NCBI GenBank assembly: GCA_947572385.1
Contig: CANPBX010000010.1
Span: 1-64,000, forward strand
DNA from: an uncultured Clostridia bacterium
Lineage (GTDB): Bacteria > Bacillota > Clostridia > Oscillospirales > Acutalibacteraceae
Length of the DNA stretch: 64,000 bases
Direction: 5' to 3'
The notes under the pieces are model-generated. The model saw only the letters and a program-made list of their open reading frames with translations, did not search any database and had not been told where the DNA came from. The translations under genes and the position numbers were made by a program. Shown here in pieces: positions 5,971 through 53,141 of the stretch (within the stretch, counting starts at the first letter, position 1; every line of letters starts with the position of its first letter).

Positions 5971-5993
5971 ATACAGCAGAAAACAGAATAGAT

Positions 5994-6150
5994 CCTTATC
6001 AAGAGCGGCGGAGGGACAGGCCCTGTGATGCCCGGCAACCTGTAGTGGAAACTGCAAGGTGCTAATTCCTGCGGAAGGGAGTTATCCGATGATGACCCTA
6101 CCGAAAGATGAGGCGTGGTATGGACCCTCGTTTTTCGAGAGTCCTATTTT
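5994..6150 (+). promoter_or_regulatory. SAM-I (S-box) riboswitch with terminator
   Basis: The aptamer shows S-box landmarks in order: CTTATCAAGAG, GGAGGGA, the GATGCCCGGCAACC segment, AAGGTGCTAATTCC and AAAGATGAG. P1 pairs 5994-6000 with 6107-6113 over seven base pairs. The expression platform is a terminator hairpin (6122-6130 with 6136-6144) followed by TATTTT. The 3' strand of P1 (GATGAGG) can pair with CCCTCG of the terminator as antiterminator. High S-adenosylmethionine should therefore stop transcription before metK, giving product feedback. Confidence 0.95.
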
Positions 6151-22262: not shown

Positions 22263-22275
22263 ATGTAATTAGCAT

Positions 22276-22440
22276 GATAGAGGCGCGGATGACAAGAGTA
22301 CGGCTGCTGTGGACCCCGGGCATGGGAGGCAGCCGGAAAGGGGATTCCGCCGAGGCTGGGAGGCCTGTGCCTGGGCTCCCTTGCCGGGCTGTGGGAGAAG
22401 ATCTCACAGACTGTCGCCCTTTTTGGGGCGGAGCGCTGTC
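22276..22440 (+). promoter_or_regulatory. lysine riboswitch (L-box) aptamer
   Basis: Landmarks in order: GATAGAGGCGCG, AAGAGTA, GGAAAGGGG, CCGCCGAGGC, CCTGGGC, ACTGTCGCCC and GGAGCGCTGTC. P1 is formed by GATAG-GCGC at the 5' end and GCGCTGTC at the 3' end. Bases just 3' of P1 (TATGAC) can pair with GTCATG of the following terminator as antiterminator. Lysine binding should therefore end transcription. Confidence 0.92.
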
Positions 22441-22467
22441 TATGACCCTTTTTATAGTATATCATTG

Positions 22468-51247: not shown

Positions 51248-51416
51248 GTTTACAGGAAAACCCGCTTGACCGTAATGTGCGTCTCAATAACCTGCCTACA
51301 AAGGAAACAGGTGGGTGCCCTCCCGCATGGTTCACGCTCCCTTCTTCCAACCGCGGTCAAAGCCGGGCCGGGAGGTCTGCAATCCGCAGGCGGAGGGGGG
51401 CTCCCTAATTGATGAG
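51210..51416 (-). ncRNA. ssrS: 6S RNA-like transcript (ssrS candidate)
   Basis: This ~207-nt minus-strand unit has its own promoter and terminator and no reading frame. Strings fit my memory of 6S RNA: CCGCGGTTGGAAG, GGGAGCGTGAACC, and GGGCACCCACCTG closing a hairpin with CAGGT. ACCTCCCG pairs with CGGGAGG around the centre, consistent with a long rod. 6S RNA binds the housekeeping RNA polymerase. It lies just downstream of the DUF1292 gene on the same strand. Covariance-model confirmation was not possible. Confidence 0.65.
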
Positions 51417-51422
51417 TGTAGG

Positions 51423-51450
51423 GTTATATGTGCACAATTCGCGCATCAAG
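51423..51450 (-). promoter_or_regulatory. promoter of the 6S-like RNA
   Basis: Minus strand: CTTGAT (51445-51450), 16-bp spacer, TATAAC (51423-51428), just past the DUF1292 stop. Confidence 0.55.
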
Positions 51451-51474
51451 CAGGCTGATATGAGGAGCTCTATT

Positions 51475-51940: not shown

Positions 51941-51969
51941 TTGACAAATCCGCGGGGGCGGTGTATAAT
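51941..51969 (+). promoter_or_regulatory. promoter of the ~590-nt RNA gene
   Basis: TTGACA (51941-51946), 17-bp spacer, TATAAT (51964-51969): an exact consensus at both boxes. Confidence 0.9.
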
Positions 51970-51975
51970 AAAGCC

Positions 51976-52564
51976 ACAACAGAAGAAGATATACAAAATC
52001 TTCAAGTCAGTTGCAGGCCGGATGGGTCGGAAGTAGCGAGCTGGAATGGCAAAGCCTAAAAGCTCAGTGAAAACGGCGGGGAGAGGATATCAGCCGCAGG
52101 GCAAAGAAAAAGCCGGCAGGTAGCTCCAGGACGGAGTGAAAGATAAAAAGACAAGGCCGGATGCAGGCGGCAGCCAGTAAGGCGGCAAAATTATTGACGG
52201 AAAGGCGGGCGAGTCCAATGGACAGCAGTATCGAATCACAGCACGGCGGGCTCGCGGCCCGCAAATGAATATAGATGAAGCCCTAAACAACAGAACATAA
52301 GAAAGGCAGGTCAATATTATAGTTGGACATATTGAAGTCCCGCAATGACCAGCAGGCATGGACCTGACCGGATCCCGCAAATTACATAGCTTAACAAAGC
52401 AGGTCGTAAAATAAAAATGCGGACAGGTGGATCAGGACTGATATGCCGGAAAAGGAAGATATCCCAATGGGCTGTTGAGTGTTCTTTGAAAAGTTCACAG
52501 AAAGTGTTAAACTTCATCGATAAATAAGAGGTCTCCGGGTCGCTACCGGGGACCTTTCTTATTT
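51976..52564 (+). ncRNA. large orphan structured non-coding RNA (~590 nt)
   Basis: A consensus promoter and a strong terminator bound about 590 bases with no credible reading frame and no ribosome site. The sequence is purine-rich with A-rich joints and many short GC hairpins. Examples are GAAGAT/ATCTTC at the 5' end, a GAGCT...AGCTC arm with an inner GGC/GCC, GCTCC/GGAGT, GTCC/GGAC, GCGGGC/GCCCGC (52246-52262) and TCAATAT/ATATTGA. It is not RNase P RNA, tmRNA, SRP RNA or a riboswitch by motif. Size and lineage fit the ROOL class or another ornate large RNA, but I cannot confirm by sequence. Confidence 0.65.
52522..52564 (+). terminator. terminator of the large RNA
   Basis: AAATAAGAGGTC-CCGGG pairs with CCGGG-GACC-TTTCTTATTT around the loop TCGCTA. 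Confidence 0.88.
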
Positions 52565-52595
52565 GCATTTTTATCCGCTTTCCAGAAAGTTCACC

Positions 52596-52624
52596 TTGAA
52601 TTTCTGCTGGATATGATGTATAAT
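52596..52624 (+). promoter_or_regulatory. promoter of the HD-domain gene
   Basis: TTGAAT (52596-52601), 17-bp spacer, TATAAT (52619-52624). Confidence 0.85.
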
Positions 52625-52658: not shown

Positions 52659-53141
52659 ATGGCAAAGCACTGGGACTCCGACGCTTTCTGGCGTCACTAT
52701 ACCGACCTTATCAGCGGCTCCAATTTGGGGAGCATGGCCGGATACCCTCAGCACGGGAATACCTGCCGGCTGCTGCACAGCGTGGCTGTTGCATATTATA
52801 GCTGCCGCTTGGCGGCACTGCTGGGCGGAAGGTTCCATATGAGGGACATGGCAAGAGGCGCCCTTTTTCACGACTACTTCTTTTATGACGCCCAGGACGG
52901 AGACCCTGCCCATAAAAAGCATTGGTCCCGACACCCTGACATAGCCTGGCGCAATGCCGCAAAGGAGCTGGAGCTCACCGGCATTGAGGCGGACATAATA
53001 CGTACCCATATGTTTCCCTTGACTCCCCGCCCCCCAAAGTATCGTGAAGGCGCAGTAGTCACACTGGTGGATAAGGGCTGCTCGGTGTATGAGTTCTTCA
53101 AGAGAAAGCGCCCCTACCCAAAGCTTGCGGGAAGGGTGTAG
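52659..53141 (+). CDS. HD-domain phosphohydrolase-like protein
   Basis: This 160-residue protein has metal-site motifs of the HD superfamily: CRLLHSVAVAYYSCRL, then GALFHDYFFYDAQD (the HD pair), then RTHMFPL and VTLVDKGCSVYEFF. It resembles the short predicted HD hydrolases of Clostridia. The substrate is unknown. AGGAGG lies eight bases before the ATG, and the gene has its own promoter and terminator. Confidence 0.88.
   Translation: MAKHWDSDAFWRHYTDLISGSNLGSMAGYPQHGNTCRLLHSVAVAYYSCRLAALLGGRFHMRDMARGALFHDYFFYDAQDGDPAHKKHWSRHPDIAWRNAAKELELTGIEADIIRTHMFPLTPRPPKYREGAVVTLVDKGCSVYEFFKRKRPYPKLAGRV

Follow-up and report, generated by a model that had tools for sequence, protein, structure and literature searches.

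The window, the 64,000-nt stretch of DNA analysed here, carries a strongly promoted stand-alone RNA gene of about 590 nt whose conserved content, judged from its letters, is chiefly a set of predicted ribosome-loading sites with tiny open reading frames (ORFs) and not one ornate fold. The gene and its relatives are read here as a new class, stand-alone 'minigene array' RNAs that would load and hold ribosomes, and perhaps, by analogy, as a translational counterpart of 6S RNA, whose gene is adjacent. That this long RNA has the loading sites as its working parts and occupies and holds ribosomes, as a decoy or parking RNA, has in our judgement about an even chance of being right. The class extends over several groups of Clostridia. 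If ribosomes do bind, the RNA does to them what 6S RNA does to RNA polymerase, and the prediction is sharp, site by site.

The RNA gene and its neighbourhood

The locus comprises the gene with its internal sites and three neighbours:

51255..51459 (-): 6S RNA (RF00013), conserved neighbour beyond DUF1292; 61.1 bits
51475..51774 (-): DUF1292 (PF06949) gene, divergent neighbour; Pfam match
51941..51969 (+): promoter TTGACA-17-TATAAT; 12 of 12 consensus positions
51976..52565 (+): RNA gene, ~590 nt; start approximate, ~7 nt past the -10 box
52199..52217 (+): GGAAAGGCGGGCGAGTCCA, an extended Shine-Dalgarno that complements the 16S 3' tail; -18.0 kcal/mol, computed for the 24 nt preceding the start codon
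52218..52268 (+): sORF 1, MDSSIESQHGGLAARK*, 16 codons; start codon in 22 of 22 intact genus RNAs
52246..52262 (+): hairpin GCGGGC-UCGCG-GCCCGC in sORF 1; alternative partner, the Shine-Dalgarno strand 52199-52217
52448..52466 (+): second loading site GGAAAAGGAAGATATCCCA; -10.6 kcal/mol
52467..52478 (+): minigene AUG GGC UGU UGA (MGC*); later sites of relatives read MDC*, MGS*, MY*, MD*
52527..52557 (+): intrinsic terminator, 12-pair stem
52659..53141 (+): HD-like gene, downstream; 20.4 bits, slightly below the Pfam cut-off of 22

The original prediction, made from the sequence alone, had described an exact consensus promoter, a strong terminator and a 6S-like neighbour around a strongly promoted stand-alone RNA gene of no described class, and all of these are borne out. 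Promoter-like sites agreeing at 9 or more of the 12 positions number 8 in the whole stretch, compared with a shuffled mean of 2.0, and the gene is a single copy in its own genome (BLASTN). At the gathering threshold none of the 4227 families of Rfam release 15 matches the RNA, and its four matches up to E 10 are unrelated and at chance level. ROOL, OLE, GOLLD and HEARO are large RNA families of the same size class. Kinship to ROOL or OLE, to whose length the original prediction had likened that of the gene, is not supported by the covariance search, in which no model matched the RNA, these four included; a ROOL/OLE-type RNA was rejected accordingly, and the conservation seen here, unlike theirs, sits in initiation sites. 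The 6S model (RF00013) finds only the neighbour at 51255-51459 (-) and not the RNA itself. The predicted fold is stabler than that of dinucleotide shuffles (z -2.93; 1 of 100 shuffles equally stable). The earlier statement that the gene has no open frame holds for + strand ORFs of at least 40 aa, none of which lies inside, but fails for shorter ones: a 16-codon ORF with a strong Shine-Dalgarno begins at 52218 and a 3-codon ORF at 52467.

Conservation in relatives was also confirmed. BLASTN with the RNA matched 14 of 99 genomes, including the window's own and all of the same genus (one further match, at L016, lies where there is no such RNA), and the closest relatives aligned over nearly the full query at 92, 85 and 80% identity (G010, G018 and G022). 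Among 26 genus loci located by the DUF1292 protein in 29 genomes, an exact TTGACA-17-TATAAT promoter lies divergent from DUF1292 at 21, and TATACT replaces TATAAT at 2 more. The RNA is missing beside DUF1292 at L088, L089 and L097; L089 has a weaker promoter match, in apparent coding sequence, and the other two have none. A GtrA-type-looking gene sequence follows DUF1292 in L088 and L089. The 22 genus RNAs range from 431 to 1244 nt (L080, cut by a contig end, is left out; no terminator was found for L084, and for L096 it was placed manually).

An RNA of this kind stands divergent from DUF1292, with 6S RNA beyond, at 23 of 26 genus loci; other genera of the family have it there at 11 of 30 loci, a second family has it there too, and Lachnospiraceae have relatives outside that neighbourhood. 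One set of 12 loci, which includes L192-L195, has 6S RNA within ~1 kb in 11; in another set it accompanies 5 of 16 loci, and it lies beside 0 of the 4 Lachnospiraceae loci of that set. Rfam reports at the relatives' loci (16 + 12) are limited to 6S, tRNA and RNase P, with none on the RNA itself. In one genus an RNase P RNA lies ~1.5 kb past the 6S RNA (L134, 2871-3216, -).

Putative loading motif and reading frames

The feature common to RNAs of the class is a putative ribosome-loading motif, approximately AAAGRGGUGAGUCCRAUG, which is complementary to the tail at the 3' end of 16S rRNA. It is near-invariant in the 22 genus RNAs as GAAAGGCGG(G)UGAGUCC followed by the start codon, an imperfect complement of the 16S 3' end, GCGGCTGGATCACCTCCTTTC. 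This tail was read without mismatch in 10 copies from 7 of the 29 genus genomes; it is taken from genus relatives, and the 16S rRNA of the window's own genome, G000, is not assembled. The stretch UGGAUCACCUCCUUUCU we take to be the whole of the 16S rRNA beyond helix 45. In the pairing test, sites were picked by the letters beside the start (G[AG]?GUCC[ACG] before AUG, AAG or AAA) and not by energy. The 66 such sites in 36 RNAs pair at a mean of -16.93 kcal/mol, compared with -8.97 (sd 1.29) for shuffled tails, and the 41 sites in 24 RNAs collected by DUF1292 alone at -16.51, compared with -9.02, with 0 of 500 shuffles as good in either case; the chosen letters themselves pair with the tail, and the part to their left alone is equalled by 15 of 500 shuffled tails for the 66 sites and by 18 of 500 for the DUF1292-selected ones. 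The computed complementarity of the sites to the 16S tail exceeds chance. The best-Shine-Dalgarno starts of 48 long ORFs in the window have the same energies (-9.9 to -21.4 kcal/mol). In the window's RNA no more than two sites were scored, and the second is weak. Exact complements of 13 short conserved strings, GGAAGUAG and GAAAACGGUGGGGAG among them, were sought in the 16S rRNA of L099 and L100, and none was found. The Acutalibacter RNAs also share the blocks GGAAGUAG and GAAAACGGYGRGGAG in their 5' half (window 52020-52130 and equivalents), which the loading-site reading does not explain.

At the first site, the 22 intact genus RNAs have AUG (19), GUG (2) or UUG (1), and the ORF runs for 16 to 24 codons. 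Over all first sites, an ORF of 14-26 codons is found in frame at 36 of 45, compared with 10 and 13 of 45 in the other two frames; for the DUF1292-selected RNAs the count is 29 of 33, compared with 9 and 9. The 'first' site in these counts is an earlier spurious AUG in L050, and a minigene in L126, L147, L151, L034, L035, L053 and L054. Nearer the 3' end, 12 of the 22 genus RNAs have a later ORF no longer than 3 codons; with the limit at 4 codons the number is 13, and 9 have none. The early stops are specific to the AUG frame: of 61 later sites, 42 open an ORF no longer than 4 codons in that frame, compared with 9 and 15 when the other two are read. The excess is found in the DUF1292-selected RNAs, where the motif was not used (31 of 37, compared with 3 and 10), in the motif-found RNAs (11 of 24, compared with 6 and 5) and in the arrays read afterwards, L192, L193 and L196 (11 of 13, compared with 1 and 3), of which L196 belongs to a genus already sampled. 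The minigenes end in UAA in 29 of 42 cases. A strong Shine-Dalgarno with an early in-frame stop, the mark of a minigene, is thus found in the class by these sequence counts, and in the window at one site, with a Shine-Dalgarno of -10.6 kcal/mol. In L039, one member of the family, three copies 67 nt apart (RNA positions 601, 668 and 735) have the same kind of initiation site and open 8-codon ORFs, MEGEYLPL, MESEYLPL and MEGEYLLL.

How these counts were made bears on their reading. Scoring admits only A/G/U-UG as a start, and the counts include sites related by descent, which makes the p value computed for the frame counts too small. AUG was part of the pattern that picked up the 16 RNAs lying outside the family's DUF1292 loci, so only the DUF1292-selected counts are free of that choice. 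Scoring by energy only gave an early-stop excess in other genera of the family (16/35) and in Lachnospiraceae (17/21), and none in Acutalibacter (14/65), Ruminococcus (2/10), the Mgla group (3/19) or the third group (1/8). It was dropped as too loose in Acutalibacter; the sharper site criterion that replaced this version, with its excess in two of six groups only, requires CC[ACG] before the start and was picked after the sites were seen. Left out of the frame counts were L080 (contig end) and L124 and L125 (judged not homologous), and, from the nonredundant counts, the close relatives L032, L040, L045, L054, L073 and L074. The later-array count leaves out L194, a near copy of L193, and treats the 17-codon sORF of L193 as a later site. 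The RNA ends of L058, L062, L068, L084, L096, L134, L142 and L148 were set by hand.

Some copies of the motif have no start codon. Among 112 copies defined by regular expression, the codon is AUG in 74, GUG in 3, UUG in 1, AAG in 12, AAA in 5 and another triplet in 17, these last including 4 ACA and 3 off-by-one hits on real sites. Few near-start codons are as poorly usable as AAG, and the AAG and AAA copies may therefore be built for binding without starting. An early in-frame stop follows in 10 of the 17 AAG/AAA copies, and the letters after the codon may therefore be in part an RNA motif and not a mark of translation.

In the Acutalibacter lineage the first site is likely switched, its Shine-Dalgarno strand pairing with the 3' portion of the sORF that it opens. 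The hairpin in that part of sORF 1 has changed on both sides in 5 of its 9 pairs, with 12 both-side-changed cells compared with 4.1 in shuffles (0 of 500 as many). For the masking pairing with the Shine-Dalgarno strand, 95.1% of cells are paired and 6 cells have changed on both sides, compared with 2.1 (0 of 500); its covariation score is not above shuffles (105 of 500). A masking string, GG[AG][CT]UC, was looked for in 11 other-genus RNAs and found at only three chance-like places in two of them. In the Acutalibacter lineage the masking structure would keep the first site inaccessible until opened by a ribosome.

Relatives beyond the genus

DUF1292 was found in 56 of 60 genomes sampled from other genera of the window's family. 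The best 30 places, one from each of 30 other genera, were searched over up to 1 kb on the side divergent from DUF1292. Start-site motifs number 48 there, compared with 2 on the opposite strand, and at least two sites occur at 11 of the 30 loci, compared with 0 of 30 on the control strand. The RNA was not seen at the other 19 of these loci; the searched stretch was only 14 bases long in L145 and 602 in L152.

A scan of GTDB species genomes for the motif returned 45 stretches, which were judged by promoter and sequence context to be 30 RNAs of the class and 15 chance or unrelated matches. The 30 RNAs fall into Acutalibacter/Neglectibacter (14), Ruminococcus (4), the Oscillospiraceae 'Mgla' group (5), a third group (3) and Lachnospiraceae (4). 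In Lachnospiraceae the motif GAAAGGCGGUACGGUCC is repeated, with copies 55-67 nt apart in L034 and L053 and up to eight of them in L196. Most copies open tiny ORFs (MKM*, MKT*, MRT*, MGT*), and in some AAG or ACA replaces AUG. One Lachnospiraceae genus has all matches of the genome in a single array in 4 of 5 genomes (6, 6, 4 and 2 matches) and none in the fifth.

Across 157 genomes of the order the motif pattern gave 62 matches in 41 genomes, compared with 9 for the reversed pattern; many of the matches are single and are probably ordinary gene starts. In the family f26, 6 of 13 genomes have three matches each; five of these genomes have all three in a single array, and one has them split between two contigs. 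Of four such loci, L192-L195, the three that were read, L192-L194, again have the promoter, a longer first ORF and minigenes such as MYR*, MK*, MY*, MR* and MT*. In one genome (G557) RRGTGAGTCCRAWG occurs six times, on six contigs, so certain lineages may use it as an ordinary start-of-gene sequence. A GUACGG variant matched in 9 of 150 genomes of the family of G363, outside G363 never more than twice, and the two matches of G459 lie on two contigs; in the genus of G363 arrays were seen in 4 of 5 genomes. An early pattern with a spacer one base shorter was discarded: it hit 9 places, spread over 8 of 300 genomes, none with a DUF1292 neighbour by tblastn; some resemble gene starts, and two (L020 and L026) resemble copies of another repeat. 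Two promoter-led copies in G175 (L026, 1443-1640, and L020, minus strand, ~120-330), with GGAAAGGCGGUGGGUCCCGUGAAC and a short ORF MNSEQTSHFHGGLPC..., look like a repeat or mobile element sharing the initiation motif.

Proposed mechanism and alternatives

The sequence shows a promoter, a terminator, conservation, complementarity to 16S rRNA, early stops and synteny with 6S RNA; from this anatomy we infer that the RNA is transcribed, binds and titrates ribosomes and is put to physiological use. Loading sites with near-immediate stop codons point to ribosome capture rather than protein production. Each site would pair with the 16S 3' tail and mostly set an AUG at initiation distance, and starting at the predicted AUGs would rely on the GGUGAGUCC letters. 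The first site would usually open an ORF of ~16-20 codons and the later sites ORFs of two to four, on which ribosomes would initiate, terminate almost at once and, tethered by the long Shine-Dalgarno pairing, re-initiate or stay; AAG and AAA copies would hold 30S subunits without starting. The net effect would be that ribosomes are kept on the RNA, which would then do in translation what 6S RNA, encoded beside it and a decoy for RNA polymerase, does in transcription. Its place there suggests a possible shared role in slow or starved cells. A bolder form of the proposal sees a ribosomal 6S counterpart, a strongly expressed decoy with up to eight stacked 16S-pairing sites that stop after two to four codons or have no start (AAG), inherited beside 6S RNA so that one locus stores or throttles both machineries; this form is possible and is put forward tentatively.

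Work on E. coli summarised in PMC8708949 bears on this mechanism. There, ribosomes on strong-Shine-Dalgarno two-codon minigenes re-initiate without dissociating, two-codon ORFs are the most toxic, and minigenes ended by UAA are more toxic than those ended by UGA or UAG; the RNA is believed to be protected by the ribosomes that occupy it. With a ribosome covering 34-38 nt (PMC8708949), the neighbour spacing of 55-67 nt in L034 and L053 would leave room for one ribosome per site.

The main rival, which we consider unlikely though worth serious attention, is that the RNA is the mRNA of a 15-25-residue peptide (M[DE]..E.Q in many) whose later minigenes load ribosomes for nuclease protection only. 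It would explain the narrow length of the in-frame first ORF (29 of 33 DUF1292-selected within 14-26 codons), the AUG, GUG or UUG start in 22 of 22 genus RNAs, where the motif alone marks the site, and the recurrence of E.Q after the start; protection of mRNA by a minigene has itself been proposed for the txe leader, whose minigene has two codons (PMC8708949). However, the peptide diverges fast, with 5 replacing and 2 silent changes counted by eye among the four closest sequences, similar frames in Lachnospiraceae (KDTFESQQ, KEITI) begin with AAG, and the scored AUG sites of L147, L034 and L053 open two- to four-codon ORFs only. A structured noncoding RNA, in which the repeated GUGAGUCCRAWG element is a binding site for a protein or a further RNA and its likeness to an initiation site is secondary, is improbable. 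The flanking letters kept in copies without AUG, the covarying hairpin in sORF 1 and the stable predicted fold all fit it, but neither the pairing with the 16S tail, nor GUG and UUG in place of AUG, nor stops specific to the AUG frame would be expected of such an RNA.

The sites might instead pair with the 16S 3' end so as to help or slow the maturation of 30S subunits, any translation being incidental, an account that is quite improbable; the consensus does pair over the entire UGGAUCACCUCCUUUC stretch and AAG copies exist, but early stops in the AUG frame would be left without explanation. Very unlikely is a leader RNA attenuating the downstream HD-domain gene. A terminator and short ORFs do lie upstream of that gene in the window, but it has a promoter-like sequence of its own at 52596-52624 and was found at only 11 of 14 genus loci; by tblastn it is found at 0 of the 16 motif-found loci outside the genus, of which 10 have DUF1292, and at 0 of 4 of the loci L192-L195, where DUF1292 is found at 4 of 4 and 6S RNA at 3 of 4. 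A leader-peptide attenuator would have a constant regulated gene downstream, and the HD gene is not one. The genome G000 encodes CsrA, which would be needed for a CsrB-like sponge acting through GGA motifs, but GGA occurs 19 times, a count reached by 231 of 1000 mononucleotide shuffles (16.2 on average, sd 3.1), and CsrA is patchy: it turned up in no more than 16 of 29 genus genomes and was not found in G007, G008, G012 and G021, which have the RNA; the sponge, which has scarcely any chance of being correct, was rejected.

The proposed minigene-array RNA shares elements with several known systems. 6S RNA, which acts as a decoy by mimicking a natural binding site, is likewise a strong-promoter stand-alone RNA and is encoded by the adjacent gene; the target proposed here, in contrast, is the ribosome, by mimicry of an initiation region, and the RNA does not match the 6S covariance model. 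Dual-function sRNAs are RNA genes with a small ORF and resemble it in having one sORF of ~15-25 codons, but the rest of the RNA here carries further candidate initiation sites, and the sole pairing partner seen is 16S rRNA. Two-codon minigenes include those of the lambda bar type. Like the txe leader minigene mg2 (PMC8708949), the sites here combine a strong Shine-Dalgarno, an AUG, one or two more codons and often UAA, but several lie in one dedicated stand-alone RNA, whereas those are single elements in an mRNA leader. The open-access full-text literature, which leaves most subscription papers aside, yielded no report of a stand-alone tandem-minigene RNA; strong Shine-Dalgarno sequences, minigenes and decoy RNAs are each known, and their combination in a dedicated gene is new as far as seen. 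Elsewhere in the window, Rfam gives ordinary matches to a SAM riboswitch at 5993-6114 (+) and a Lysine riboswitch at 22270-22446 (+).
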